Source: Candidatus Thorarchaeota archaeon | Lineage (GTDB): Archaea; Asgardarchaeota; Thorarchaeia; Thorarchaeales; Thorarchaeaceae | Length of the DNA stretch: 64,000 nt | Reading direction: 5' to 3' | Assembly: GCA_016840855.1 (NCBI GenBank) | Contig: JAEORO010000069.1 | Coordinates: 62,001-126,000 of the forward strand | Shown: positions 5,125-58,596 of the stretch, piece after piece | Numbering within the stretch: the first letter of the stretch is position 1 | Layout of the letters: each line of letters begins with the position of its first letter | Program-made: the position numbers and the translations under genes | The notes under the pieces: model-generated | Seen by the model: the letters and a program-made list of their open reading frames with translations, nothing else | Database searches by the model: none | What the model was told of the DNA's origin: nothing

Positions 5125-7296
5125 TTAAATCCAATCGCCAGTTTCGAGCTTTCGAGGAAGATACTCATCAGTGAGATACTCGAAACTGTGGCTAGCAAAG
5201 GCTTGAATCTCTGCCTTCTCTTTAAGCCTCAACATTAGTTCTAAATCTTCAACCCATGGTTTATTTCGTTTAACAAATGGTTCTTTCAGCATATCTTTGA
5301 CTCGTTTAATATCAGTAGGCTGCATTGGAATCCTTACTGCTTTAGGAATCTTATATTCATCCAAATCACGACTTAGGACACCAAGAAGCTTAAGCTCAGG
5401 GGTAGCAATGAATGGAGATTCGTAGCTAAGTCTCTTACTTCCTCTGAGAAAGACCGAATATATGTAGTGACCATAAGGATCAGAGTCAACAAGTGCAAAA
5501 GCTGGTATCTCAAGCTCTTTAACAAGCATCTTTAGAAAAGCTCTGGTAGCAATATCTCCTGAACCCTTACCAGTTATCACAATACATGGTTGACGATTCC
5601 AATATTTCGCTTCTGCTAGTCGCATAACTGCAGCATCCTTCTCAGATAATATGATGAACTCGGCATCACTTTCGACTATCTCTAGCTGGTCCAAGAAGGG
5701 TGTAACAGCCCATCCACCTGTACCCATCTTTGTAAGATCGATAAGATCACCGCCATCCCGAATAGTGACCCGACCCATTGCGGAACCACGAGCAGATGCC
5801 ACGACATGAATACTATCACGTGTGGTCTGAATCATTGAAGCAACGTCTTCAATGATCTTATCGCTGTACTTCTGTTCTCTAAATAGATTAACATCACTGT
5901 AGTAAACTTCTCTTTTGGTAGCATGTAAATTAGATTTGAGAAGGTTAAACACAATCTCCATCACGCGCGCGGTTCTTGTTGCATCAACAACTGATGCAAG
6001 CGAGTGATATGGACGAGATATTGTACGCATTCCCAGAAGGAGTAAGTCGCGTACCTCATCCCATACTATGTTGTCACCAGACCTGCTTGGGATATCAAAT
6101 GCAGGCCTGCCAGTCAACATGGTTTCGTTTAGAATATCGATTGCTGTATCTATAATCCTCTCAGTTGTATCATCTGCTGTGAGGTTTACAACTTCGACGG
6201 TTTCAATAATAGGTTCTACACTTTCACCAGGTTCTTTGGAGGCTTGAACTCGCTTCTCTGCAGCAGCCCAGTTTTCCTTCATCTCATCGGCTAAATTCTT
6301 GATGGTTGTAGGAACACTCAACCCCGATTCCTTTCTTGTTGGTTTGGGCTTCTTTTTTGGTGGTGGTTTGAGTGTCTTTGTTGGTCCTTTAACTGGAGGA
6401 GCTTTCTTACCAGGAACAGCTTTCTTTGATGGTTTCTCTTTTGTTGGTTTTTTCCGAGGTTTGGGTTCTATCACTGTTTCTTCCTTCTCTGGCGTCGTCA
6501 TTGTTTCTGTCGAAGTTGCAGGTGTAGGTGTAGGTGTAGGGATCGGTTCTACGGTCAGTTCAGCTAGTTCCTGTTCCCGAACCATATCTTTTGCAGCATT
6601 AACAATTGACGCTGCTCTCGCGATACTAAGGCCGCCAACTTTCTTTGCGACATTCTCAGGTGAGGCTCGAGCCAACCGAGCAACAGAATCATAACCAGCA
6701 CGCTCCATGGAAAGAGCAAGTTTAGATCCTAAGCCAGGAACATCTGTGAGCGATAGTTTCGGAGCTCTGATTTCCTCTTCTGGAGCCTCTGGCTGAGGTT
6801 CAGAAGGCTCTGTTATTGCAGGAGTTGATACACTTCGTTTCACCAGATCTTTTGCAGCATCTGTAAGTTTCTTTGCTCCGGCTTGACTAAGTCCCTCGAC
6901 TTTCTTCGCTAGTGAAGGAGGTCTTGCGCGAGAAATCTTTTCTACAGTTTCATATTTTGCTTTGATGAGCTTTTCTTGAAGTTTGGATCCTACACCAGGA
7001 AGGTCAGTTAAACTAAACGCACTTTCTGGTAGTTCGGTCGGAACCTCTTTCTTTGGTTTGGGTTCTTTCTTCTGCTTTTTCGACACAGCCTTCTTTTTAG
7101 GAACTACTTTCTTCTCAGAGCCTTTTTTTGACACACGTTTTGGTTTCTTTGAGCTTGCTGCTTTTTGGTCTGGCTTCTTTGTTTTCTTCTTTGTTGACTT
7201 TGCTTTGGTACTCTTCTTCGTCTTGGGCTCTTCAACAACCTCATTCAGTGTTGCTTGAATTGTAGTTGACTTTTCCTTGGCTTTTTTACGGCTCAC
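5125..7296 (-). CDS. top6A: DNA topoisomerase VI subunit A with Lys-rich and tandem HhH N-terminal extension
   Basis: C-terminal core with Spo11/Top6A signatures (YYSDVNLFREQKYSDKIIEDV, IVITGKGSGDIATRAFLKML, ALVDSDPYGHYIYSVFLRGS); N-terminal ~330 aa contains Lys-rich runs and two LTD(L/V)PG(V/L)GSKL HhH units. Confidence 0.95.
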   Translation of the reverse strand: MSRKKAKEKSTTIQATLNEVVEEPKTKKSTKAKSTKKKTKKPDQKAASSKKPKRVSKKGSEKKVVPKKKAVSKKQKKEPKPKKEVPTELPESAFSLTDLPGVGSKLQEKLIKAKYETVEKISRARPPSLAKKVEGLSQAGAKKLTDAAKDLVKRSVSTPAITEPSEPQPEAPEEEIRAPKLSLTDVPGLGSKLALSMERAGYDSVARLARASPENVAKKVGGLSIARAASIVNAAKDMVREQELAELTVEPIPTPTPTPATSTETMTTPEKEETVIEPKPRKKPTKEKPSKKAVPGKKAPPVKGPTKTLKPPPKKKPKPTRKESGLSVPTTIKNLADEMKENWAAAEKRVQASKEPGESVEPIIETVEVVNLTADDTTERIIDTAIDILNETMLTGRPAFDIPSRSGDNIVWDEVRDLLLLGMRTISRPYHSLASVVDATRTARVMEIVFNLLKSNLHATKREVYYSDVNLFREQKYSDKIIEDVASMIQTTRDSIHVVASARGSAMGRVTIRDGGDLIDLTKMGTGGWAVTPFLDQLEIVESDAEFIILSEKDAAVMRLAEAKYWNRQPCIVITGKGSGDIATRAFLKMLVKELEIPAFALVDSDPYGHYIYSVFLRGSKRLSYESPFIATPELKLLGVLSRDLDEYKIPKAVRIPMQPTDIKRVKDMLKEPFVKRNKPWVEDLELMLRLKEKAEIQAFASHSFEYLTDEYLPRKLETGDWI

Positions 7297-32264: not shown

Positions 32265-35200
32265 CTACTTCTTCCTAATTAGGAAGAGTATCAACAGCAC
32301 AACAACACCAACACCGATTCCACCAATCAATCCAATAAGGAGTGGATCAAAAATCACCTCACCTGTTGTAGGTGTGGTTGGTGGGGTGGATGTAGTGGGT
32401 GGCGGTGTTGTGACTGGCACATTACCTGCAGAGAATGGACCACTGATTGAGTCTACGTATAGAGCCATTGGACCGTATGAGTCTGGTGGACTCTCAGCAG
32501 TACCGAGTGGTTCGCCGTCAACTATGATTCCAAGGTCAACGCTGTATACTCGTACTCTATAGTAGTAGTCGCCTTCAAGCCATCCATCCGAATCCCAGAC
32601 AAAGAACGTTTCAGTCAAGTTCTGCCCTAAGAGCTGGTATGTATCGCCTCCATCTGAGCTAAGCCAGACCATGTAGAAGATGGAATCATCCTCGTTTCGG
32701 TCTGTCGCTGAGAATGTGAAGTTATAGCGATCATCACCAAGATCGATAGCATCATTGATTGTTAGTTTCGGTCCGAAGAAGTTACGGAAGGTGACTTTTC
32801 CAAAGTCAATGAGCCAGACGACATCAGTTTCAGTCCAGCAGTACAGGTAGATGTCCATAGTCTTGTTGACTAGTATGTTATAGGTGTCATATGTGACAAG
32901 ATCTGTAGCACTTGGCAAGTCAATTGAAACCCTTGTGTCAACTTCAAGCATGTAGCTCTGATGGTTGTATGCCCAAGCCCAGCAGAACACACGGATGGCA
33001 ATGTACATGTCAGCAGGAGAAATGTATGTACCAGTTTCAGCTGCTCCACCGCCTCCGTTGTCCACAGACAGGAGCGCAGCTCCAGTGTTATCTGGAACCT
33101 CATTAAGCTCTACAAGCCCGTTAGAATTGAGATCATTCCATTCATAGACATCGAATGATGGGTCTGCACTGCCTTGTGCATCTAAGGTCACGACGACTGT
33201 GTCACCTGCAGATATGGGACCGACAGTTTGCCAGATGTAGATATCAGTGCTGGTCAATGGAACTGGCCAGGTATCAGCACCTTGGGGATCTGCATATGTA
33301 CCTGTTGGATGTGCATAAAGACCACTCAAGAGACTCAGTTGTGTACCAGTAATGACTGAGTATTCCGGAAGTCCAGCCACATCTGGAATGGTCCAATTGG
33401 TTGTCACGACAATATGGTCTCCAATCAACACATCATCCTCGGAGATGCTTGTTGGGGTTGTCATATCTTTAGCAGTCCACTTGAAATCGTTCTCAGCTTG
33501 CGTCAAGGCTGTTGGGCCATAGACCTGGAACGTAATTTTGATGGGTTCCGGTACATCCGCACCATCAAACACGTGGATGTTGTATTCAAACCAGTATGTA
33601 CCATTTATCAGATAGCCAGGATCCCAAATAATGGTGTTAGTCAAATCACCTGTTGGTTGTGGGTCAAATGGACGACCACCATCATTTGTGCCTGTGATAG
33701 TAGCACCGAGTTCATCCCTTAGTTGCATGTCAACTACAGTTCCTTGGTTCATCCACTCAGCTCTCATGACGAGAACTGATGCATTGATTGCATCGTTGTA
33801 CGGAATATCGATGTGGAATATTGTGAAACCACCGCCCTCTTGAGTACTGTCTGTACCAGGAGTGAAGTGTGTTATCGCTGTTCCACTATCGTATGGGGTC
33901 ACTTCGGGACCTGCTCCATCGACAAGGACCATTTCAGCACCCGCTGCACCATCAAGAGGCATCTCGACAGTGTAGGAGTATGGTATCTCGTGAGTGAAGC
34001 CACCAGCCACAAATGTGATTGATCCCTGATGGAATCCGTACTCAGCATCTGCATCTACAGTGAGTGTTGCATTGACACCAGTTGTGCCATCGTCAGTAAT
34101 AACGACATCAGTATCGGGTGTCTGTGCCCAGATCTGTATTGTCACATCTACAGTCACTCCACTAGCACCAAACAGAATCAGTGTTGGGTTGTAACTGAAG
34201 AGATTTGACAATGCAACAGGATCAGCAACACGGAAGGTGAGCAGATTAGGTTCATCACAGCGCTGTACATAGACAAGATAGTCACCATCTGTACCGTTCC
34301 AGAAGTTCAATTCTGGTCCACCAGCTGTGTCACTCCAATCGAACAGACGACCTGTAATGCCCATATCAGATGCATCAAATGCAACCTGGATAGTCGCGTA
34401 TCTAGCAGCAAGGAAGGCAGTCTGTTCTGGACCAGTCATGTTGTCAAAGAGATTGAAGTATCCAGACCTAATGACATTGGTAAGAGTGTCATTGTATGTG
34501 TAGCCAGTGAGTGAGAACTCAAGCTTGGAACCTTCAGTGTAGTACCACGGTTGTGGTGCTGAACTGAAACTAGCAGTGTTTGCGCCATTTCCAGCATAAT
34601 CGTCTATGTTCAGAGTGATTGTCTTCACTTCTGATCGAGTGACTGTGCCAAAGAATATGTCGCTTGACTCTAGACCTACAGGATCAAACCAGTCCTCGTA
34701 GTAGATGTCATCAAATGGAGCCCAATAGGGTACCCAGTATGCCCATGACTCAGCAATCTGTTCAGCATAGCTTGCAAAGCTCTCTGATTCGAAGATGAAT
34801 TCAGATGTGTATCCTTCTTGGATAGCCCTGCATGCAGCCTCAGCATTGATGAAGCCGTGGCCTTGTACAGCTGGGTCATAACCCATGTCATCAGCAGTTG
34901 ATAAGAGAATGTCTTTTGTTAACTGCGGTGATGGCATTACAGCTCCGTGGTTGTCAGCCCAAGCTTCCATGATTAAGGCAGATACACCTGCTGCAAGTGG
35001 ACAGGAAAGACTTGTTCCAGACCAAGAGAGGAATGTAGGACCAGCATCAAGCCAGTCATTCTCTGATGGTTCCGGATTATATCCGAAGAATCCAGGAGCC
35101 ATTACATCAGGCTTCACGTAGCCAGTGTATGCTGGACCTGTAGCTGAGAAGAATGCTTGCTGATAGTTTGGTTGGTATGGATAGTAGGAGTTGACATAGT

Positions 35201-37097
35201 AATGGTTTGCCATGGTCGCACCAACGCTAATCACAGAGAATGTGCCGCCAGGTGTGCCCATTGAACCATAGTCACTACCTTCATTGCCCGCAGAGAACAA
35301 AATCAGCACTCCAGGATAGGACGGTGCCAATACACCAGGTACTGATGCAAGGTCCCACACCATTGAGTAAATTCTCAACTGAAGGTACATGCCACCAGGA
35401 CCCCAACCCCAAGAGTTGGAAACCATGTGAGCCCTGTGACTTGGTCCATCACCAATGTATTCCCAGTAGCCAGAGGTTTCATTCAGAGTGAAGCCCATGG
35501 CCCAAACTTGAGCAGCTAAATCACCACCTGCGGATATTCCTTTAGAGGCAATGATCTTAGCACCAGGAGCTACACCGGGTAGATAATAGAGTGTTCCATT
35601 ACCGTAGATGTCATGACCATAGGTACCAGCTGATGCAATTGCAGAAGCTGTCCAGTGGCCGTGATCGGTTGATGTTGTGAACAATGAGTTCCATGCCATA
35701 CCATCATCAGCGATACCGAAGAACAGGCCAGGATCCTCAGTCAAGTAACCAAGACTGTCTAATGCCCAGCTTAGTGAGCCAAGACCACAATCCATTACGC
35801 CATCATCGTCAACATCAGCTGTAAGAACGTTATTTCCTTTATTGAAGACGTAACCTTCAGCAATATCATCAACGAAGCTCCAATCCATCATTCCTGTGAT
35901 TAGATCTCTGTCAGCAGTGACATTGAGGTCTATCTCATAGGGTAGATATGGTGTACCAGCGGGATGTTGTGATCGAATTGCCCAGTTCCACATTCGAGTC
36001 CATGCAAGTGTGCCATTCCAGTCAATAATTAGATCATCATCATAAATCATTGAAGGAGCGAACACTTTTGCATAACCATCAATCTTCTGTTGGTATGCCC
36101 AACCGAATGTGTAATTATCAGCTGTAGGAGCAGGAATCTCCCAGTCCTTCCACATCTCATGGTAGACAAACTCAGAAACATTGTTTCCACCCCATGCCCA
36201 CTCATATAGACCGATGAAACCAACAACATCACCTTCTGGGTAACCATCTCCATATGGAGGTCGAACGCCCATGAGGTTTCTATGACTACCTTCCATGTTA
36301 CAAACTGGATCCCAGCCTGAAACATCAAGATAGTATTTACCGCCCATCTCGTAAGTCAGAAGATATCCAGCTTCGAGCCAAGCAGTTGTGTTTTCTACAT
36401 AGGTACTGTTTGCGATTACCATCTCAGTCAAACCCATACTTGATGGGTCATAGGACATTGGGTATGTACCATTGTTGTACTCAGCATTCCTTAGGTCTTC
36501 TTGGCTGAAGTCGACACCAGAGTCGACGACACCTACGATGACGCCATCTCCAGAATAGCCAGTAGCATATGGTCCAGTAGCGCCGATTAATTCGTTGATA
36601 TAGAACATATCAGGATTAACCAGGTCTGCCAAATCCGTTGCCGGTTCAGGCGCTCGGATGTAGTCAGCTTGGATGTATTGAATTCCATCAAAAGATGTCA
36701 GCTTTTTCAAAGCAGAAATCGAGCTTACATCAACTGATGCCACCCTCAAGAGTTTTAGATCAATCTGCCATCGTACCTTTGCAACATCTGCAAGTACGGA
36801 AGCATCAAATGAAGGTGTGAGATACAGCAAAAGCTTTGTGTCACCACTTGTTGTTGTGACTACACTATCATCCAAAACACCTGTTTCGATATAGGATGTT
36901 ATTATTGGATCAACTTTCTCCACCGGGAAGTTTTCCTGTAGACGTTGTGCCCACTTTTGGATAAACTCCTTTTGATAATCGGTTGGAGCTGCTACCTGGG
37001 AGTCAACATTGGCGAGAGGTGCGAATGGCACAAGTGCCATGCTTATAACGAACACACCACAAAGAAGTAGAACCGCAGTTTTTCTCAGGTTATTCAT
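32265..37097 (-). CDS. Giant membrane-anchored S8 subtilisin-like protease (1610 aa)
   Basis: Signal peptide; GVIVGVVDSGVDFSQ (Asp), TDHGHWTASAIASAG (His), ILFSAGNEG (Asn), WSGTSLSCPLAAG (Ser); Thr/Pro linker TTPPPTTSTPPTTPTTG then TM and RKK. Confidence 0.93.
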   Translation of the reverse strand: MNNLRKTAVLLLCGVFVISMALVPFAPLANVDSQVAAPTDYQKEFIQKWAQRLQENFPVEKVDPIITSYIETGVLDDSVVTTTSGDTKLLLYLTPSFDASVLADVAKVRWQIDLKLLRVASVDVSSISALKKLTSFDGIQYIQADYIRAPEPATDLADLVNPDMFYINELIGATGPYATGYSGDGVIVGVVDSGVDFSQEDLRNAEYNNGTYPMSYDPSSMGLTEMVIANSTYVENTTAWLEAGYLLTYEMGGKYYLDVSGWDPVCNMEGSHRNLMGVRPPYGDGYPEGDVVGFIGLYEWAWGGNNVSEFVYHEMWKDWEIPAPTADNYTFGWAYQQKIDGYAKVFAPSMIYDDDLIIDWNGTLAWTRMWNWAIRSQHPAGTPYLPYEIDLNVTADRDLITGMMDWSFVDDIAEGYVFNKGNNVLTADVDDDGVMDCGLGSLSWALDSLGYLTEDPGLFFGIADDGMAWNSLFTTSTDHGHWTASAIASAGTYGHDIYGNGTLYYLPGVAPGAKIIASKGISAGGDLAAQVWAMGFTLNETSGYWEYIGDGPSHRAHMVSNSWGWGPGGMYLQLRIYSMVWDLASVPGVLAPSYPGVLILFSAGNEGSDYGSMGTPGGTFSVISVGATMANHYYVNSYYPYQPNYQQAFFSATGPAYTGYVKPDVMAPGFFGYNPEPSENDWLDAGPTFLSWSGTSLSCPLAAGVSALIMEAWADNHGAVMPSPQLTKDILLSTADDMGYDPAVQGHGFINAEAACRAIQEGYTSEFIFESESFASYAEQIAESWAYWVPYWAPFDDIYYEDWFDPVGLESSDIFFGTVTRSEVKTITLNIDDYAGNGANTASFSSAPQPWYYTEGSKLEFSLTGYTYNDTLTNVIRSGYFNLFDNMTGPEQTAFLAARYATIQVAFDASDMGITGRLFDWSDTAGGPELNFWNGTDGDYLVYVQRCDEPNLLTFRVADPVALSNLFSYNPTLILFGASGVTVDVTIQIWAQTPDTDVVITDDGTTGVNATLTVDADAEYGFHQGSITFVAGGFTHEIPYSYTVEMPLDGAAGAEMVLVDGAGPEVTPYDSGTAITHFTPGTDSTQEGGGFTIFHIDIPYNDAINASVLVMRAEWMNQGTVVDMQLRDELGATITGTNDGGRPFDPQPTGDLTNTIIWDPGYLINGTYWFEYNIHVFDGADVPEPIKITFQVYGPTALTQAENDFKWTAKDMTTPTSISEDDVLIGDHIVVTTNWTIPDVAGLPEYSVITGTQLSLLSGLYAHPTGTYADPQGADTWPVPLTSTDIYIWQTVGPISAGDTVVVTLDAQGSADPSFDVYEWNDLNSNGLVELNEVPDNTGAALLSVDNGGGGAAETGTYISPADMYIAIRVFCWAWAYNHQSYMLEVDTRVSIDLPSATDLVTYDTYNILVNKTMDIYLYCWTETDVVWLIDFGKVTFRNFFGPKLTINDAIDLGDDRYNFTFSATDRNEDDSIFYMVWLSSDGGDTYQLLGQNLTETFFVWDSDGWLEGDYYYRVRVYSVDLGIIVDGEPLGTAESPPDSYGPMALYVDSISGPFSAGNVPVTTPPPTTSTPPTTPTTGEVIFDPLLIGLIGGIGVGVVVLLILFLIRKK

Positions 37098-37538: not shown

Positions 37539-38630
37539 TTATTGGCGAACAAGTTTCTTTATTGAATCAACAATCTCATTCACCATGATTATGGCTCCAA
37601 TCATCTCGACTTTCGGTTCCTCTCCATGGGAGTCACCAACTTCTCTGGCAACCCGAGTCATAGAACGACCTAGACTCTCTATCAATGAAACCAATGCTCG
37701 TTTGCCACCATCGCTCTGATTACTCGATTCAACTTGCGAGATAAGGTCAACAAGATCAGAAATGACACTATCAGAAACTTCAGCAGCAGTTTCAGCTCTC
37801 CGTCCTAAATCATCCCATTTCATTTGGGCATCTTTCAATTTACTTGACAACTCAACAACGATATTATCATCAGCAAATGCAGGAGAGGTCCTAGTTGCTC
37901 CTTCAGCTGCAAGGCGTAAATCAGCTATTTCAGTTTCTAGAGATTCAATAAGAGCATCCTTCATCTTCAACTTCTCAAGAAGGCTTTCACTAGGAGCCGG
38001 AGCTGCAGCAGGGACTGTTTTAAGTTGCTCTTCCATTATTGCGATTGACTTTTCTCGCTCTCCAACTTCAGCTTTAATTGTTTCAAGTTCTCCTTCAAGT
38101 GCAGTGAGTGAATCCTCCTTTTCTGAGAGAAATTCATTGAGCCGTTTATTCTCTGCTTCCAGTTTTTGGAAGGCATCTTTTGATGTCTTAGCTTCCTCCT
38201 TTATATCTCTGAGCTCATCTTGTAGAGAAACAAAATCTGGATCAGGTGGTGAGATAACATAGTAGCTGATGATTGAGATAATAACAACAAATACAGCTAC
38301 ATATATGAGAGAGCTCCAAATAGAGCCAAAGAAGAGGTTAGTCAGGAGTTGCAGGAAATTTCTGAATGTAGCCGAAGAACCAAAACCTAATAGCTGACCA
38401 AATGTAGCATAAAGTACTGCAATTATTGCAACTCCAAAACTAAGGACTCCTATGAGAAGCATAATGTTGCGTTTCAAGGCGTTTTGAGGAAGGTGTCGTT
38501 GGTACAAGAACAACAAGACCGACAGCGTTAGTAAAGGAATAACGTAGGGCAACGAAGCAACAACGTCATCCATGGGAATACCAAATACAACAAGCACTTC
38601 ATATCCTATGGATGTGATATAATCAGTCAT
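37539..38630 (-). CDS. Membrane protein with long C-terminal coiled coil
   Basis: Four N-terminal TM segments followed by a heptad-rich region (ELRDIKEEAKTSKDAFQKLEAENKRLNEFLSEKEDSLTALEGELETIKAEV); start chosen because GGAGGATT lies just upstream of ATG at 38630. Confidence 0.7.
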   Translation of the reverse strand: MTDYITSIGYEVLVVFGIPMDDVVASLPYVIPLLTLSVLLFLYQRHLPQNALKRNIMLLIGVLSFGVAIIAVLYATFGQLLGFGSSATFRNFLQLLTNLFFGSIWSSLIYVAVFVVIISIISYYVISPPDPDFVSLQDELRDIKEEAKTSKDAFQKLEAENKRLNEFLSEKEDSLTALEGELETIKAEVGEREKSIAIMEEQLKTVPAAAPAPSESLLEKLKMKDALIESLETEIADLRLAAEGATRTSPAFADDNIVVELSSKLKDAQMKWDDLGRRAETAAEVSDSVISDLVDLISQVESSNQSDGGKRALVSLIESLGRSMTRVAREVGDSHGEEPKVEMIGAIIMVNEIVDSIKKLVRQ

Positions 38631-38722
38631 AGGGAATCCTCCAGTGTGAAACAAGAACCTGAATCCTCTTGGAGGATAAAACTATTCTTTGTATTGCTTT
38701 CCAACGCATAAAGACATCTCTA

Positions 38723-39049: not shown

Positions 39050-39236
39050 TTCATTAGTTCACTCCGTTTCAGGATGACATAGTGTCTATCCGTCACTATA
39101 ATATTAACATGAACAAATTTACGCACGTTTCTCGGAATTTCCGAGCTAGACTTGTGAGCTTTAAGAATACTAGAAAGCACTCAAGAAAACCCTTATCTTA
39201 GGTTTGGAGGTCGTTCGATTGGAAGGACATTCTAAG

Positions 39237-42155
39237 ATGCGAACTATCCGTAAATCCCTCTATCACCGTTTTGCAGCTCTTCTGCTTCTGAGTCTACTAT
39301 TTACACCAATCGCCATCTTTGGAACCGGTATGAATGATACTGTAGAATATCATACTGCAAACATTAAGCCAGACCTGGCTCAGGCGTTGAGCACGATGGA
39401 ATCTAGTAGTTACATCTCAGTCATTGTAGAATTTTCGGATACACTATTAGCTGACCAGATGGCGGAAAGAATACAACTTAGTGGTTTGAAAAGCGTTCAC
39501 ATAAAATACGCATTTCATCTGATTCCAATGATTTCATTATCTATCAGAGTTGATGAAATTAATGAACTTGCTAAGTTAGCTTTTATTGAAGAGATTCATT
39601 TGAACCAGAAAAGACAATTAATTGAGAACTCTGAGCCACCAGAAAATTATGTCTTGGCTGAGAACGGGAATGGATATGTTCACTTTGATTCGATTCTTTG
39701 TGCAGACCAGTTGTGGGCAGAGGGAGTCAACGGTACTGGTGTTACAATTGCAGTTCTGGATAGTGGTGTCTGGGGAGAACATCCCGATCTTCAAGACCGG
39801 TTAATTGGATTCAAGGACCTGATTAAAGGACAGGATGACATGAATCCTGTAAATGGAATTGATGCCTATGATGACAATGGACATGGGACAGCGTGTGCAT
39901 GGAATGCAGTAGGTGATGGAACAGCTAGCGGTGGCATCCTTAAGGGAATCGCACCTGGAGCTGATCTTTTAGCAATTAAAGTTCTTGATTATGCAGGCGC
40001 AGGCGAGGATGATGTTATTGCTCAAGGTATTGAGTTTGCTATAGAGCAGAATGTGGACGTCATAAGCCTCAGTCTTGGCGGAGAGTGGCTGGAAAGCACT
40101 TTCCTTGTTGAGGCATCTGTGGGTGAGATTGAGAATGCAATTTCAGCAGGAATCTCAGTAGCTGTAGCTGCTGGAAATTCAGGTCCAGCGGCGCTCACAA
40201 TAAACTCTCCCGGTGTTGCTGAGAAAGCGGTTACAGTTGGAGCTTCATATGGTGATAGTGGCGTAGTAGCATTTAGCAGTGTTGGACCAGTATTGAGGAC
40301 AGTGACAGATCCATTAGGGTACACTGCAAAACCAGATGTTGTAGCACCAGGATATCAAATAGTATCAGGAAGAGGGAACAATGTTAACCCAGACGAATAT
40401 CCAACTTATAATAGCAGTCAGTTTGGGTCAAGCTACACCCGCTGGTCTGGAACATCTGCCTCTACTCCATTGGTGGCAGGCATGATTGCACTCCTTATGC
40501 AAAAGCATTTGGCCCTTGCGCCTATTGAAGCAAAAGTAGCTCTGATGAGTTCGGCTACTGATCTTAACGTTGATCCAATGATACAAGGATGGGGATTAGC
40601 CAATGTTTCACGAGCATCTCAATTTCTCAATAGCACATCACGAGATATTACATTGATGACTCCGAGAAGCATACCAACACTCCCATGGAGTAAACAAGTG
40701 CTTATTGTAGGCGATGATCGTCCGCCTCAAAATGTGACAATTATCTCAACACAATCTGTTGGTTTAGTGGACATCACAATCTCTGGGAATGCGAGCCAAT
40801 TCCTAGATACAAATATAGACCAGATATGGGTATCAACAGGTTACTCATATTTTGGAATCGAGCTCAAACTACCTGAAAACACTCCACTTTCATCTGCAGG
40901 AGTTTACACTGGACAACTCAATCTAAATCAAAGTAGCAGCATCATCGCATCCATCGACATCAGATATTCAATCACACTTTTCGGTGGCAGATTGATGGTC
41001 GATATGGAACATCATTCTAGTGGTGTGGGTGGGGATATTGATGATCCATCTTATTATGGCTACTTCACAGAATACCTAAGAGAAAGGGGAATGGTTGTAT
41101 CAGAGTTTGGCGATGCTGAAGATCTCAGACGGAGCTATATCGACTTCAATACTATTTCGAGTGCGGATGTTTTCATGATTATGGATACAGAAACTTCATA
41201 CTATCAAAGTGAGGTGTCAGCACTGCACACATTCGTTGAAAATGGAGGAACACTCCTAGTTTTTTCAGAATTCTATAATCAGGTTACAGGAGAAGCATCC
41301 TTTGCATTTGACGACTATAATGCAATTCTTGAGCCATTTGGGATACAATGTGAGGAACGTACAATTGGGGCAGGTCTCAATAATTCGGGAATTATCTATG
41401 GAGCTGATTATGGGGGATTTGTTGAGAACGATCCTCTTATGAATGGTGTAAACAACCTCTACGTCCTTCAAGGTAGTACGCTTCATGTCAACCCTGAGGT
41501 GTCTAACGCGACAGGCTTGTTCTGGGAAGATGCTGGAAGGACACATGCAATTGTTGCTACTGCGGAGTATGGCCGCGGTCGTGTCTTTGTGATTTCAGAT
41601 GGGTCAACTTTGTACGATGATGTCTTATATGATGCAATAAACGCAGGTGCTGACAATCTACGACTTCTAAGAAACTTAGCCACTGCAATCATTCCAGAAG
41701 CCCCTAGAATCTTTGATGTCGAACTAAATGTCGGAGAGTTTGGTCAAGACGCAAATGTAACTGCGTATATTTTTGATGAGGATCTCGAAGATGTTACAAT
41801 AAGTGTGATTGGACCACGAGGAGAGAATCTCACAGGGACAATTCTTGAAGAGCTAGGCTATAAATTTTCGACCACCTTTATCTTTAATGGAGGAGGTTTC
41901 TTCTCAGTCCAAGTTAGAGCTACTGATTCATTGGGGAATGTAAGGTTTTTCCAGAAAACAATCTTGATACCTGTCGATGCAGCTGATGATCTTGTAATAT
42001 TGACAGTCATCTATGTGCTTCTTGGGGTTGTAGGAGTTGGTCTTGGGTACGTACTTCTAACAAGAATTAGGAGTCGACCAAAGCGGCCTCAACGTCCTAT
42101 TGAACCACAACGGGACGAGGATGAGTGGGAACTCCCACCACCAACTATCGAATAG
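39237..42155 (+). CDS. S8 subtilase with site-1-protease-like (MBTPS1) C-terminal architecture and TM anchor
   Basis: Propeptide; GTGVTIAVLDSGVWGEHPDL, DDNGHGTACAW, VAVAAGNSGPA, WSGTSASTPLVAG; then GGRLMVDMEHH...YFTEYLRERGMVVSEFG...VENGGTLLVFSEFYN; C-terminal TM and cytosolic tail. Start placed at the internal ATG 39237. Confidence 0.93.
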   Translation: MRTIRKSLYHRFAALLLLSLLFTPIAIFGTGMNDTVEYHTANIKPDLAQALSTMESSSYISVIVEFSDTLLADQMAERIQLSGLKSVHIKYAFHLIPMISLSIRVDEINELAKLAFIEEIHLNQKRQLIENSEPPENYVLAENGNGYVHFDSILCADQLWAEGVNGTGVTIAVLDSGVWGEHPDLQDRLIGFKDLIKGQDDMNPVNGIDAYDDNGHGTACAWNAVGDGTASGGILKGIAPGADLLAIKVLDYAGAGEDDVIAQGIEFAIEQNVDVISLSLGGEWLESTFLVEASVGEIENAISAGISVAVAAGNSGPAALTINSPGVAEKAVTVGASYGDSGVVAFSSVGPVLRTVTDPLGYTAKPDVVAPGYQIVSGRGNNVNPDEYPTYNSSQFGSSYTRWSGTSASTPLVAGMIALLMQKHLALAPIEAKVALMSSATDLNVDPMIQGWGLANVSRASQFLNSTSRDITLMTPRSIPTLPWSKQVLIVGDDRPPQNVTIISTQSVGLVDITISGNASQFLDTNIDQIWVSTGYSYFGIELKLPENTPLSSAGVYTGQLNLNQSSSIIASIDIRYSITLFGGRLMVDMEHHSSGVGGDIDDPSYYGYFTEYLRERGMVVSEFGDAEDLRRSYIDFNTISSADVFMIMDTETSYYQSEVSALHTFVENGGTLLVFSEFYNQVTGEASFAFDDYNAILEPFGIQCEERTIGAGLNNSGIIYGADYGGFVENDPLMNGVNNLYVLQGSTLHVNPEVSNATGLFWEDAGRTHAIVATAEYGRGRVFVISDGSTLYDDVLYDAINAGADNLRLLRNLATAIIPEAPRIFDVELNVGEFGQDANVTAYIFDEDLEDVTISVIGPRGENLTGTILEELGYKFSTTFIFNGGGFFSVQVRATDSLGNVRFFQKTILIPVDAADDLVILTVIYVLLGVVGVGLGYVLLTRIRSRPKRPQRPIEPQRDEDEWELPPPTIE

Positions 42156-43425
42156 GACCAAAGGTCGATTCTAAATACTCTCGCAATCGTTCGTGTCGAG
42201 GTCTGAGAAGAGGCTTTTCATCTAGAATAGCTCCAGACTCTACTCTTTCGAGTATCTCATAACCTAGACGAGCACCCATGCGTGATGATATCACCTGACC
42301 ACCAATAAGTCGACCATCGTCAGATGTAATCAATGCCATCTTGGCAAATTCAGTAGAATCTTCCAGATAGTGGACCCTTGATGTAAGAGCCATTTGGTTT
42401 GCAGTTGTCGATGAATGCCCTATAACTGCAATATCTGTATCAAAGATTCTATCATACTGGAAACGTCTTAAGATGTCACTATACAATTTGGTACCACCAG
42501 CTGCAATGACTCCAGCTTGGCGACCAGCTCGTGCTGCAACACTACCAATTGGGAGGAGGAGCGGCTTTCCAGTTAGGGAGTCTTTCATCTCCACGCAATC
42601 ACCGACTGCAAATACATCATTGGCAGAAGTCTTCATGGTTGCATCTACAACGATTCCACCAAGCTGCCCAATCGATATACCTAGTTTTTCTGCAATCTCA
42701 GTGTTTGGTCGTACACCAGTCATAAAGAGAACTGCATCGCATGTAATTGTATCATCACCCAAAACAAGTCCTTCAACACGCTTTTTCCCAATGACAGAGG
42801 CAGGTGATTTCCCAAGGTGAATGTTAAGATCATCTGGAAGTCTTGACTGAAGTTCGACACTCATAGGTTCTTCCAATTGTTTTCTCATTAAACGAGAACG
42901 TATGATGAGATGAACGCTCTTGTCAAGTGAATGAAGTCTCTCAGCAGTTTCAAGACCACTAAAACCAGCTCCTACGACTGCAACAGAATTCATCCCTGAT
43001 AATTGTTGACCAATTTTACTTGTATCAGCCATCGTCTGTATTGTAAAGACTCCTGGTAGAGTTTTGCCTTGAATATCAGGTACAGCAGGAGCGCCTCCGG
43101 TAGCAATGATGAGACGATCATATTTGAGAGTGCTTGTCCCTTTAGGGCCATTAATCTGAATTTGTCTAGACTTAGTATCTCCATCGGTTACATGAGTGCC
43201 TGTCATTATGGAAATGCGCTTCTTGGACAGTGCGGCAAAAGACCAATCTTCAATTCCGAGATCTGAAGTATCAGGAAACTCAATCGCCATAGAAGCTCCA
43301 GGTTTCTTATGAGATTCCAATGTTTCTTCTGTGATAATAGTGATTTCAGACTTGGCATTGAACATCCGAGCAGCTACCGCTGCTGCGGCACCACCGGGGC
43401 CATAACCAATGATTAAGATTTTCAA
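42145..43425 (-). CDS. FAD/NAD(P)-dependent pyridine nucleotide-disulfide oxidoreductase family
   Basis: ILIIGYGPGGAAAAVAA, RLIIATGGAPAVPDI, VAVVGAGFSGLETAERL, DVFAVGDCVEM. Confidence 0.92.
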   Translation of the reverse strand: MKILIIGYGPGGAAAAVAARMFNAKSEITIITEETLESHKKPGASMAIEFPDTSDLGIEDWSFAALSKKRISIMTGTHVTDGDTKSRQIQINGPKGTSTLKYDRLIIATGGAPAVPDIQGKTLPGVFTIQTMADTSKIGQQLSGMNSVAVVGAGFSGLETAERLHSLDKSVHLIIRSRLMRKQLEEPMSVELQSRLPDDLNIHLGKSPASVIGKKRVEGLVLGDDTITCDAVLFMTGVRPNTEIAEKLGISIGQLGGIVVDATMKTSANDVFAVGDCVEMKDSLTGKPLLLPIGSVAARAGRQAGVIAAGGTKLYSDILRRFQYDRIFDTDIAVIGHSSTTANQMALTSRVHYLEDSTEFAKMALITSDDGRLIGGQVISSRMGARLGYEILERVESGAILDEKPLLRPRHERLREYLESTFGPIR

Positions 43426-46400
43426 CCTGCCTCACCTCTTCGTCGTCGCATTATGATCAGAAATACACAACCCGTAATAACAATTGCAGCTCCAATTATT
43501 ATCGCAGTGTAGTCCTGTACAATCGTAAGAGTTGCGAAATTCAACTCGGTTCCAGGTACTGCTTGCCCTATAGCGATTGCAAATACTTCATGATTACCAA
43601 GTTGGAAATAAGAAGGAGTTATATCGAATTCATAGATCCCAGTACTACTTGTAAGAGTGAAATTGAGCCATGGCCCAGCTTCGGAATGAAATGCAACATA
43701 AACCCTTGATGCAAGATTATATCCTGCCAGGACCAACTCACCAGATATTAAATCGTTCATTAAGAATCCAACTCTTATGACAGTACGATCAAGGATAGCA
43801 CTTGTAAAAGCTAACTGTGGACCAATTTGTGTAGAGAGTAGAATCAGTGGCAAGTAGAGAACATAGCTTTCAGAGGTTATGTTAAAAGATATGCTGTTTA
43901 AAGACGAAGTGCCAATCAGTTCTTCCGGAACTGTGACTATGAATTCGCTTTCACCAACCACTGATGAAGAGTTCAAATTCTCAAGAGGCCCATTTACGAT
44001 ACTCCATGCAGTTGTCTGAAGGTTCTTTGGTGTGTCACGATCATTAGTAAAGACATGAAGCCTCATCGAACCATCATTAAACTCCAGCCAAAGATTCTTC
44101 ATAACTGGGAGTAATGTATCCGTGAGAGTTCCGGTTCCAGACACATCAACATTCGACATTGTTGAATTATGCGTTCTCACTGATATGATACCGCGGGTTC
44201 CAAGATTGATGCCATCAATTCTGAGAATCACCGACGTATAATCGGTCCACCAGTCTGCGACTAATGAAGATGATATATAGGCAGTTCCATTCCAATCATA
44301 GACCTTTGCAGACCCTCCAGTCACATTGACCACAATATCGGCACCATTGATTCCTGTACCTGCATTTGAATCTGTATCCCAATTTATAGATAGAATATTC
44401 GTCCCCTGGAAATCAGGAGTATCTCTCATTGCAATTGCAAACGCAAGTGAATCGTTATCCAGGAAGGATTTGACAGAAGTGATGTCAAGACCTCCAGGTA
44501 CTGAAAGATCAATTGAATCTACAAAGAGTTCATCTACACCAAACCAATCGGAGTACGTTGCATTGTCGACACCAGGTGAGGCAAGAACTTGAGTTACAGA
44601 CCACAGTGCATCAACAAGCCCGTGTCCCCATGATGTCGATGCATATTCATAGTGGTTTGTTTTTCCTCCGGCACCATTGACCAGTACAGAATAATCCAAC
44701 CACGCAGAGTTCTGTCCTGATGCCTGACGAATGAGAGCTAAAACTCCTGCAACGTGGGGTGATGCCATACTGGTCCCATCTTTTGAGGTCCATAAGTCAT
44801 ACGCCGATGTGCTAGCTGCTATTATGTTGTCCCCAGGAGCGGCAACGGCTGGTTTTGGAGACCCATCGACTCTAGGACCTCTGCTGGATTCAACCATAAT
44901 GTTTGAACTTCCTTCGCTGTATGCGGCGACCGCCACAGCGAAATCAGCTGTGGCAGGAGAGCTGATGGTTCTTTCCGAATCAAGAGAGGTTTGGAATGTT
45001 AATTGGGTAGTTTCCCATCGTCCGTCCCATGCAAACGCATCAACCCATATGAGTTCACCAGAATCATTTGTGACTGTGACATTCCAAACGCCATTTGTCC
45101 ACAGATGGTCTTCTGCAGAAACTTGGATTATCACATTATTTATTCCACGAATACTGACATCAGCGAAGATATAGGCGCGTAGATTGCTATCTTCATGTTC
45201 CCAAGATTGTCCAACTATAGACGAGAAGGCTCCAAGATCGATTGGATCACCTGAAGGTGGCGTTAGAATGACATGCTCATCGTTATCTGAAGAATGCCAT
45301 AATAGGCTTAGAAATGGAACCCGTGAAATCATCACATCATCCACATTCATCAAAGCAGAGCCTGAAGTCCCAAGAACGGATGAGAATCGAGCATGTTTGT
45401 TCTTATTACCAAGATTCCCAGCAGCAGCAGTAGTTAATAACCCATGGCGTAAGAAAGCCTCTGAAACAGCAAGGTCTTCAACATCAGTCCCATCTAAGAA
45501 TCCGAGATAAGAAGAAAATGACATGTTGATAATATCCGCATCATTTTCAATTGCAAAAGATATGCCATCTAAAATGTCAGCAGATAAGAGCTGACTCTTG
45601 ATGATTATCAGATCAGCTCCAGGAGCAACACCAACAAATGATGTCATCCCAATTTGACCTCCCGCAATAGTAGAAGCTACGTGAGTTCCATGACCGTATT
45701 CATCACCAATAGATACTGCTTGAGTTAGGTTAACACCCCTTACATACACATCTGAATTTGCTTGATCATATAGAATTGCTACCTTGGATTCATTTAGAAG
45801 AATAGCATTCTCGACACCCAGGGTAATAACATTATCATCATTTGCGTCAATACCACCAATCCAACGGTCTCCAGACGCATAACTGAAGCCAGGAGAGCTA
45901 TCGACATTAATGTACATGTAATCAGATGAATAACTAAAATCTGGACCAACAGATGAGTCAAAAAATGCTCTAATTGGCCCTTCGTTGAGATCGGGGTTAG
46001 AATTGTTGTTAAGATCTAAGTAGTAGTCTGATCCACTTTTAATGGTTTGATATTCGTGAGAAGAGCCACGCCAGAAACTAGGATGTGTCCAAAGAGCACC
46101 CGTATCAAGAACAGCAATAGTGACCCCAGAACCATCGACAGATCCCCCATCCTTGTGCAGATTGATCCAAACGGCATCAGCATGAATAGCTGGCACAGAG
46201 GAGCTTATGGATGGCGTGTATTGTTTCGTGCCAGAGGTAGCTCGTATCAAGCCAAGTTCTGATAATTTTGTTAAGGAGTTGATATCATATACATATGCAG
46301 AATAAATACGGCCAACACTGATAATTGTTGAATCTCTCCTGGCGAAACAGATGCCTAAACTCTCAGCGTATAGGATTTCTGCATTGGTCAAAGTGGCAGT

Positions 46401-46616
46401 AAATTCAAGGAGAGCACGCGCACCGGAAGTTGATGAATGAACCTCCATTTTTAGACGTGACTCGATTAATGGTTCTTGAGTACTATTAACAGAGTTAACC
46501 TCGAATCGTGTTGCTATGGATGTAGGCGCAAGGAAAAATGGCAATAGCAGGATTATCAGAATGATGTATCTTTGGTACATTGGAGTCCCTCTGTGGCGGG
46601 TTGATGACCGTCTCAT
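43422..46616 (-). CDS. Membrane-anchored S8 subtilase (1064 aa)
   Basis: SGVTIAVLDTGALWTHPSF, DEYGHGTHVASTIAGG, TTAAAGNLGNKNKHA, KDGTSMASPHVAGVLALIRQ; C-terminal TM then RRRRGEAG. Start may be the internal M13. Confidence 0.94.
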   Translation of the reverse strand: MRRSSTRHRGTPMYQRYIILIILLLPFFLAPTSIATRFEVNSVNSTQEPLIESRLKMEVHSSTSGARALLEFTATLTNAEILYAESLGICFARRDSTIISVGRIYSAYVYDINSLTKLSELGLIRATSGTKQYTPSISSSVPAIHADAVWINLHKDGGSVDGSGVTIAVLDTGALWTHPSFWRGSSHEYQTIKSGSDYYLDLNNNSNPDLNEGPIRAFFDSSVGPDFSYSSDYMYINVDSSPGFSYASGDRWIGGIDANDDNVITLGVENAILLNESKVAILYDQANSDVYVRGVNLTQAVSIGDEYGHGTHVASTIAGGQIGMTSFVGVAPGADLIIIKSQLLSADILDGISFAIENDADIINMSFSSYLGFLDGTDVEDLAVSEAFLRHGLLTTAAAGNLGNKNKHARFSSVLGTSGSALMNVDDVMISRVPFLSLLWHSSDNDEHVILTPPSGDPIDLGAFSSIVGQSWEHEDSNLRAYIFADVSIRGINNVIIQVSAEDHLWTNGVWNVTVTNDSGELIWVDAFAWDGRWETTQLTFQTSLDSERTISSPATADFAVAVAAYSEGSSNIMVESSRGPRVDGSPKPAVAAPGDNIIAASTSAYDLWTSKDGTSMASPHVAGVLALIRQASGQNSAWLDYSVLVNGAGGKTNHYEYASTSWGHGLVDALWSVTQVLASPGVDNATYSDWFGVDELFVDSIDLSVPGGLDITSVKSFLDNDSLAFAIAMRDTPDFQGTNILSINWDTDSNAGTGINGADIVVNVTGGSAKVYDWNGTAYISSSLVADWWTDYTSVILRIDGINLGTRGIISVRTHNSTMSNVDVSGTGTLTDTLLPVMKNLWLEFNDGSMRLHVFTNDRDTPKNLQTTAWSIVNGPLENLNSSSVVGESEFIVTVPEELIGTSSLNSISFNITSESYVLYLPLILLSTQIGPQLAFTSAILDRTVIRVGFLMNDLISGELVLAGYNLASRVYVAFHSEAGPWLNFTLTSSTGIYEFDITPSYFQLGNHEVFAIAIGQAVPGTELNFATLTIVQDYTAIIIGAAIVITGCVFLIIMRRRRGEAG

Positions 46617-55956: not shown

Positions 55957-58596
55957 TCATAATTCTCTCCTCGGTTTCCTTCTGCTACAAACGATAGCCA
56001 AGATAATCAATCCCAGGACTGCGGTCAGAAGTATTGCTAACCGAAGGTAATCTGGTTCTTCAGGAGGAGGTACTGTGGATGTAGGACCACCAGTTGTTGG
56101 GCTGGTGGTAGAAGTAGTGGTAGGTCCTGTTGTTGTTGTCGTTGTTAAGTCTGTCACGGTGTAGCTATACGTTCCAGAAACCGACCAATTACCAAGAGTA
56201 TCATTTGCATAGAATCGATAGTAAACTATCGTACCATCTGGGAGTGCTGGAATTGTAGCTTCATAGTAAGATCCAAGCCATGTCATCGTGAGATTGAACC
56301 ACATAGTTCCATTGAAGTATGACAATATGACTGTATCAACACCTGAGGCGTCAGTGACTGTGACATTTACCAAGACGGATTCAGTCGATTTGGGCGTGAA
56401 AGGTGTTCGGTCATGGTTCCCTATCACGGGCCCAGAAACATCTGGACCAGGAACTAGGGAGATTAAAGCAGCCTCAACATCAAGCTTACCACCACCCCAG
56501 TCAGCATTAGGCACAGCTCCAGTATAAACATCACTTGTAGCAGTCGTTTCTAGAATAACTTGCATTTGATCGCCTACTGATGAATTTGCTTGAAGCAATA
56601 GAGCAGCAGCTCCTGCAACGTGGGGACCAGAAGCACTTGTTCCACTGAACAATCGATAACTGCCAAATTGTTTACCAAAAGGAAGAGTTCCATAGTCGTT
56701 GTACCATGAAACCCATGCAGATCCATATGCATAGTCAGAGATTATGTCATATCCTCCAGGAGCAGCTACATTTTGTTTGTTGACACCATCAATCCTTGGA
56801 CCACGGGATGAAAAGTCTGCGCGATCACCAATTATTCCTCCGCCAACTAGGTTTCGTGTTCTATAACTCGCGACACTAATCGTGCGATCAGCAGTTGAAG
56901 GCCAAGTTATTTGGTAGCTGTCAACGACATCGTTAATCCAAATACATCCACCACTCCATCCAGTTTGAATATCAGAAATGTAGGCATGAATTGTTGCAGA
57001 ATCAGGCGTCGATATATTGAGTCGATAGTATGGGACTAAAGCGGTATTTGGAAGACTTCCATACAACTTGATGGCAAGCATCCTTGTACCCCTCATAGAA
57101 ATTGATGTGAATGATTGTACATTAACACCAGGGATGATGTTTGGTTCCACAAACCAAGCCCATTCGCCAAGACCAGGATGGAGGTAGATGGTAGTCCCAT
57201 TTATCCACAGACTGAAATTACTTGTCAAGAAATCAGTGGGGTCAATTGTGAGGACTGTTATATAAACCTCATATATGTACTCAAAGAAGGTAATATTGTC
57301 TGGTTTTGGAACTGAGAAATCAATGAGATGGGGAGTATTAGGAACAGTGGTAGCCATAGCATGTTTATTTTTTCCCCCAAGATTACCACTGGGTGAAATT
57401 ACAGGAATGCCATCCGCTACTAGCTCGTCAATCATCTGTTCAACCTTAGAACTTCCATCAAGGTATTCCCATGTCCAAGAACCGACCTCAGTAAGAATGA
57501 CATCAGCACCAGTGTTATTCGCTATTGTAAGACCTTCTTCTATTGTCAACCAGGTATTTTGGTTACCTATGACACGAATCATCAGCAACTCAGCATCAGA
57601 CGCGACTCCAACATAGTCGCGATAATCAAGCTGTCCACCAAGAAGTATACCAGATACTGCGGTACCATGACCACCCCCGTATGGACTATCATCAGTGTGA
57701 GTACTAGTTGTAAGATTCGTGCCACGTTCCCACATCTGAATGCTAGGAGTGGAACTACCATCTTTTTCAAAGATGTACTTGGTCTTGGGTGTTTTTAGCA
57801 TCACTAGCTGTTCTCCAAGATCAAGGAGTCCGTTACTAGAAGTGTCATTCACAACAAAGAAGGGTTCTCCAGTGTCAGGATATGCATTTTGCGTTACATT
57901 GTCCATCCATACCCATTCTTTTCGCACGTTGAAAACCCCATTATTGTCCAAGTCAAGAAAATAGAGAGCTTCATCAGCCATGATAGTGCCATCAGAATCA
58001 ACATCAATACCATCAGTTCCATTATCTAACTGACCGTTTGAAATTTGGTCAAACCATGAATATTGACCGCCATCAGCGAACCATAGATCTGGATGCTTCC
58101 AATCAACTCCAGAATCAAGATCAGCAACGAGGATACCTTGTCCAGTGATATTTCTACTAAGATCATCCAACATTGCATTGACATTGTCCGCATTTATCTC
58201 CGGAATGGATAGGTCTCGAGGTGATTCTAGGAATTGTGCATGTGTCTGAGCAGCTATTTCAGCAACTGCACCCATGTCTATCAAAGCCTGTAGATTTTCA
58301 GACGAACCAGTCATTAGGTAATACGGACCAATGTGACTTTCACTTGCACTTCCCAAACTGAATTTCAGATTCAAAGATGTAATGATATTAAGAAAACTTG
58401 TTGAAAGATCCCGATTGAAACTTACTACAACTGGTATCCGCTCTCCATAGACTGAAGCTAATGCATCGAGATCTATTTTAATCGGCGCAATCTGGGTTGC
58501 CTTAATCTCCTCTTTCGGTAGTGAAAAGAATAGAACTGGAACACATGACAAAACAAGACATAGAAGCAAAAGCGTGCTTTTTACTTTCTTATCCAA
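55957..58596 (-). CDS. Membrane-anchored S8 subtilase (879 aa)
   Basis: GILVADLDSGVDWKHPDLW, GGGHGTAVSGILLGG, VISPSGNLGGKNKHA, FSGTSASGPHVAGAAALLLQ; Thr-rich linker TTTTTTGPTTTSTTSPTTGG then TM and RRKPRREL. Confidence 0.94.
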   Translation of the reverse strand: MDKKVKSTLLLLCLVLSCVPVLFFSLPKEEIKATQIAPIKIDLDALASVYGERIPVVVSFNRDLSTSFLNIITSLNLKFSLGSASESHIGPYYLMTGSSENLQALIDMGAVAEIAAQTHAQFLESPRDLSIPEINADNVNAMLDDLSRNITGQGILVADLDSGVDWKHPDLWFADGGQYSWFDQISNGQLDNGTDGIDVDSDGTIMADEALYFLDLDNNGVFNVRKEWVWMDNVTQNAYPDTGEPFFVVNDTSSNGLLDLGEQLVMLKTPKTKYIFEKDGSSTPSIQMWERGTNLTTSTHTDDSPYGGGHGTAVSGILLGGQLDYRDYVGVASDAELLMIRVIGNQNTWLTIEEGLTIANNTGADVILTEVGSWTWEYLDGSSKVEQMIDELVADGIPVISPSGNLGGKNKHAMATTVPNTPHLIDFSVPKPDNITFFEYIYEVYITVLTIDPTDFLTSNFSLWINGTTIYLHPGLGEWAWFVEPNIIPGVNVQSFTSISMRGTRMLAIKLYGSLPNTALVPYYRLNISTPDSATIHAYISDIQTGWSGGCIWINDVVDSYQITWPSTADRTISVASYRTRNLVGGGIIGDRADFSSRGPRIDGVNKQNVAAPGGYDIISDYAYGSAWVSWYNDYGTLPFGKQFGSYRLFSGTSASGPHVAGAAALLLQANSSVGDQMQVILETTATSDVYTGAVPNADWGGGKLDVEAALISLVPGPDVSGPVIGNHDRTPFTPKSTESVLVNVTVTDASGVDTVILSYFNGTMWFNLTMTWLGSYYEATIPALPDGTIVYYRFYANDTLGNWSVSGTYSYTVTDLTTTTTTGPTTTSTTSPTTGGPTSTVPPPEEPDYLRLAILLTAVLGLIILAIVCSRRKPRREL

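Follow-up and report, generated by a model that had tools for sequence, protein, structure and literature searches.

Predicted membrane-anchored subtilisin-like proteases with the ectodomain plan of site-1 protease form an Asgard-wide class

Site-1 protease (S1P, also known as MBTPS1 or SKI-1) activates SREBP and ATF6. Its ectodomain comprises a peptidase S8 domain (residues 187–478), a P-like β domain (479–616) and a GIFT domain (617–998); the last of these supports the loop that carries the oxyanion Asn and, within the protease family of S1P, is distinct to this enzyme (PMC11231238). Proteins of intraflagellar transport, of the oligosaccharyltransferase and of bacterial gliding also have GIFT domains (PMC11231238), and another GIFT-domain protein, WBP1/OST48, has homologues in Heimdallarchaeia (PMC10307638). 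In the literature searched we found no link between S1P and the Asgard archaea.

The gene considered here lies on the forward strand of a stretch of 64,000 nucleotides (the window) from a Thorarchaeota contig, running from an ATG at 39237 to a stop codon that ends at 42155 (972 residues plus stop); the open reading frame as listed begins upstream, at a TTG at 39204. Orthologues share 56–69% identity in nine Thorarchaeota contigs and 47–56% over the rest of the family. Conservation at this level (47–69%) across Thorarchaeota excludes both a chance open reading frame and contamination of the metagenome-assembled genome. This is a real, conserved Thorarchaeota gene, and the Asgard origin supposed in an earlier, sequence-only reading of this DNA is borne out.

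The predicted protein begins with a signal peptide (residues ~1–31, KSLYHRFAALLLLSLLFTPIAIFG; 39237–39329), read from the sequence and seen as a helix at residues 2–22 of the AlphaFold model. It is followed by a propeptide (residues ~43–127; 39363–39617) that resembles the N-terminal pro-region of the Thermococcus subtilase Tk-SP, as judged by alignment with pro-Tk-SP, a weak PF18237 match (0.039) and an α/β fold in the model. The peptidase S8 catalytic domain (residues ~154–465; 39696–40631; PF00082 match at residues 166–453, 3.6e-51) is complete, with the catalytic triad Asp175 (39759–39761), His216 (39882–39884) and Ser407 (40455–40457, in an invariant GTS) and the oxyanion-hole Asn314 (40176–40178), the counterpart of S1P N338, all invariant in 18 homologues. 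Model strands and the profile alignment place a P-like β domain next (residues ~470–573; 40644–40955), at the position of the P-like domain of S1P. Pfam, profile and fold searches then identify a GATase-like GIFT domain (residues ~575–823; 40959–41705), in which no Cys nucleophile elbow was seen. Model strands outline an extra β-sandwich (residues ~824–912; 41706–41972), which is followed by a transmembrane helix (residues ~917–943 by hydropathy, 918–945 in the model; 41985–42065) and a basic cytosolic tail (42066–42152). This tail ends in EWELPPPTIE, and near Thorarchaeota orthologues keep the form EWE(L/V)PPPxIE; in many other Asgard S8-GIFT proteases (L036, L032, L094, L111, L232), zinc ribbons follow the transmembrane helix. 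The order of S8, β, α/β and transmembrane segments that had been read from the letters is thus upheld by Pfam, model, fold and profile comparisons and hydropathy.

Human S1P has this same order, as the earlier reading stated. The S1P letters quoted there were checked: a 683-residue stretch of the human protein agrees with chain positions 197–879 of PDB 8uwc_A except at three letters close to its beginning, and the sequence of the PDB entry was used from there on. Searched against the PDB, the full AlphaFold model finds S1P (9csd_A) as its best match (7.0e-37 over 770 columns), ahead of Tk-SP (4.8e-34), with TM-scores that are modest (0.37–0.47) because domain orientations differ or are uncertain; by sequence of the S8 domain this order is reversed, the S8 domain of Tk-SP being closer to that of the window protein. 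A profile built from 18 Asgard S8-β-GIFT proteins aligns in a single unbroken run with S1P chain positions 198–863, across all three subdomains, at an E-value of 5.9e-86. With single sequences, BLASTP of S1P against the window protein gives 3e-25 across the S8 and β domains and a separate match to the module (5e-6), while unbroken alignments are obtained for other Asgard proteins (L034, L036, L110 and L111), with S1P matching L034 at 2–603 (3e-36), L036 at 14–656 and L111 at 1–674. Short motifs are also shared: RVLWDQSHD in L103 corresponds to RVLWDQYHN in S1P, and SLNELL in L094 to ALNELL. Three Asgard proteins of 810–818 residues (L034, L035 and L103) have no extra β-sandwich and consist of S8, β, GIFT, transmembrane helix and basic tail, which is the plan of S1P. 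Of the proteins in its genome, the one in the window matches S1P best, by a narrow margin.

A further similarity concerns the S8 loop between the FSSRG and KPD motifs. In S1P this loop has 13 residues (372–384) and packs on GIFT (PMC11231238); its counterpart in the window protein (residues 351–364, PVLRTVTDPLGYTA; 40287–40328) is likewise extended, as it is in the Thorarchaeota family generally (13–14 residues, with one exception of 8), and in other readable subtilases it mostly has 7. The longer loop came to attention only in retrospect and may reflect convergence.

The post-catalytic module is a GIFT domain, and by itself it is not diagnostic of S1P, because the Pfam models DUF4350, GldG-type ABC_transp_aux, MBTPS1_4th and IFT52_GIFT all match it at similar E-values (3e-5 to 6e-4) and IFT52 is ahead by profile (1.5e-10 in a PDB profile search with the module, with S1P behind at 7e-6). 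It had been allowed that the module might match only generic DUF4350/GATase1-like domains; instead, the S1P model scores about as well as DUF4350. MBTPS1_4th gives 21.8 bits with the whole window protein and 26.9 bits with the isolated module, against a Pfam cut-off of 27, and matches 17 of 18 homologous modules at an E-value of 0.01 or better. A direct hhalign comparison of the module profile with S1P gives 98.7% and 3e-16. By fold, S1P also ranks first for the C-terminal half of the model (Foldseek against the PDB, 2.2e-15), followed by OST48, IFT52 and GH42, and the OST48 match spans most of that protein.

Based on these comparisons, we propose that the window protein is probably the zymogen of a subtilisin-like protease that is secreted and held in the membrane by a type I anchor. 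It would belong to a class, spread across the Asgards, in which an ectodomain with the S1P plan is followed by a transmembrane helix and a cytosolic tail. The precursor would be exported by the Sec pathway, with the propeptide aiding folding before being removed by self-cleavage. Catalysis would then take place at the outer face of the membrane through D175, H216 and S407, with N314 forming the oxyanion hole. The GIFT domain is presumably non-catalytic and, by analogy with S1P, could pack on loops of the S8 domain beside the oxyanion hole, where it would gate or position substrates. The membrane anchor would limit cleavage to those parts of membrane or surface proteins that lie outside the cytoplasm.

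It is also possible, if somewhat unlikely, that the enzyme is a degradative membrane-anchored subtilase of nutrition or surface housekeeping, whose GIFT and β domains do no more than attach it to the S-layer, to glycans or to a partner, and that no regulated cleavage occurs. This reading concerns function and is compatible with either evolutionary history discussed below. The window holds a cluster of four S8 genes, and large S8 genes flank the orthologous Thorarchaeota loci, which favours such a role, as does the resemblance of GIFT to domains of GH42 and OST48 that are linked to glycans. Strong conservation argues against it, as does the finding that S8-GIFT proteins are the only S8 proteases in two fully examined genomes (G038 and G057), one of which measures 1.4 Mb; the conserved cytosolic tails or zinc ribbons point instead to a cytosolic link. 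The three other large S8 proteases near the gene lie at 32265–37097, 43422–46616 and 55957–58596. Between two of the S8 genes, at 37539–38654, is a 371-residue membrane and coiled-coil protein with a weak match to LMBR1 (1e-3) that falls below the cut-off. Farther away, at 5125–7296, the window encodes a Topoisomerase VI A/Spo11-type protein of 723 residues whose long N-terminal part contains helix-hairpin-helix repeats.

As to history, the plan shared with S1P is most likely homologous and derived from a common S8-β-GIFT ancestor. A somewhat doubtful alternative is convergent assembly, in which ordinary archaeal subtilases acquired a promiscuous domain of the GIFT/DUF4350 type separately from S1P, so that the parts are alike and the history is not. 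The raw material for such assembly is plentiful: nearly every Asgard genome (227 of 228) has GIFT modules, several in each, with and without S8 (about 17 of 41 modules are S8-fused in six Asgard genomes). Moreover, several S8 clades carry GIFT, and the S8 tree gives no grouping of S1P with the Thor clade. Convergence does not readily account for the common order, which includes the intervening β domain and a C-terminal transmembrane helix, nor for the fact that the GIFT domain of S1P is closest specifically to S8-fused modules. The Pfam model of the S1P GIFT domain, which is blind to S8, finds matches in 23 Asgard genomes, and all 22 of the readable open reading frames are S8-fused. When modules are ranked by phmmer with S1P GIFT, 37 S8-fused modules score above 32 unfused ones (Mann-Whitney p 0.0008) and the window module ranks fourth, whereas IFT52 GIFT has no preference for fused over unfused Asgard modules (p 0.80 and 0.86). 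Because the rows are related to each other, these p-values are optimistic; in addition, a profile of fused modules served to collect the unfused ones, so that their selection may be biased. Fused modules also cluster in the module tree, where 34 of the 37 fall on one side. Three unfused Asgard GIFT proteins of 396–514 residues (L267:979-2166:-, L257:1465-3006:+ and L260:1444-2826:+) score 62, 56 and 53 bits with IFT52_GIFT, whose cut-off is 27.2. The module tree joins them to IFT52 (91/87, not starred), and they are possibly relatives of the ciliary transport protein.

Putative membrane-anchored S8-β-GIFT proteases constitute an Asgard-wide class of which the window protein is a member. At least 23 of the 29 Asgard families have members with an S8-GIFT fusion. 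A GIFT match is present in 30 of the 160 non-Asgard archaeal genomes searched, and in none of these 30 is the domain fused to S8; in another set of 394 genomes, which overlaps the first and includes some Asgards, the large non-Asgard GIFT reading frames inspected (at least 514 residues) were without S8. S8 proteases do occur in non-Asgard archaea, without GIFT fusion in the samples inspected. A tblastn search of plasmids, a control of low power, returned S8-only matches and, with the module, two weak DUF4350 matches in Haladaptatus and no fusion. Family f34, a non-Asgard archaeal family in which the closest S8 relatives of Tk-SP from Thermococcus are found, has GIFT at the C-terminus of proteins of 600–1324 residues without S8 (L163, L179, L323, L337 and L338).

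S1P forms a long, unplaced branch in the S8-domain, module and full-length trees, each of which contains a single, human S1P sequence with an end branch of 1.9–2.8 changes per site; an unverified sequence of subtilisin BPN' is a minor row of one tree. With the S8 domain alone, AU tests reject a grouping of S1P with the Thor clade (p 0.011), whereas grouping with the pan-Asgard core clade is borderline (p 0.07) and with another Asgard S8-GIFT clade is compatible (p 0.42). When S8, β and GIFT are considered jointly, the test rejects grouping neither with the core (0.225) nor with the Thor clade (0.336). In the full-length tree a third clade (E) joins S1P at 64/32 only, and the S8 domain of S1P has equal or better partners in other archaea (129 versus 119 bits). 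Asgard S8-GIFT proteins fall in several clades of the S8 tree, which requires no fewer than four switches between the fused and the unfused state; GIFT has therefore been gained, lost or exchanged several times, and fusion or domain exchange may have occurred more than once in the history of these proteins.

Because S1P is a long, unplaced branch and the Thor grouping is rejected on S8, we class the window protein as S1P-like, probably with a homologous architecture, rather than as an orthologue or ancestor. The Thor branch is probably not the one nearest to S1P. On the S8 domain the window protein does not group with S1P, an outcome that the sequence-only reading had named among those counting against it, although S1P is a single, very long branch and other Asgard clades are not rejected; its suggestion that this cell may hold an ancestor of S1P stays conjectural. 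A true S1P orthologue performing the site-1 step ahead of an M50 site-2 protease is very improbable: architecture, topology and the extended GIFT-contact loop are as it would predict, yet the S8-domain test speaks against it, and the two M50 genes that were sought and found in this genome lend no weight to the suggested regulated intramembrane proteolysis, M50 being present in 14 of 14 control genomes. We accordingly set aside M50 presence as evidence for a site-1 step.

Homology of the shared plan, which we prefer, leaves room for a more tentative and rather less probable proposal, namely that eukaryotic S1P descends, via the archaeal host, from a pan-Asgard family of membrane-anchored proteases with S8, P-like and GIFT domains, in which the Thorarchaeota gene of the window represents one diverged branch. 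If this is true, a Golgi protease central to lipid and stress signalling is older than the eukaryotes. An Asgard family with the S1P build, which fits with the WBP1/OST48 homologues in Heimdallarchaeia (PMC10307638), allows the origin of this signalling protease to be put to the test.

Among known systems, S1P (PDB 9csd, 8uw8 and 8uwc) shares with the window protein a signal peptide, a pro-region, the S8, P-like β and GIFT domains, a single transmembrane helix near the C-terminus, a short cytosolic tail and a lengthened S8 loop at the GIFT contact, with 30% identity in S8 and β and about 18% in GIFT. The window protein differs from S1P in the extra β-sandwich between GIFT and the membrane, in a catalytic domain that is not grouped with S1P in the S8 tree test, and in a pro-region that resembles that of Tk-SP. 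Tk-SP and other Thermococcales subtilases (3afg) provide the best catalytic-domain match among solved structures, at 27–28% identity in the fold alignment, and share this type of pro-region; unlike the window protein, they have neither a GIFT domain nor an S1P-like C-terminal half. IFT52, OST48/WBP1, GldG and DUF4350 proteins, in turn, have the post-catalytic α/β (GIFT) domain in common with the window protein, and, unlike it, are without a protease domain.
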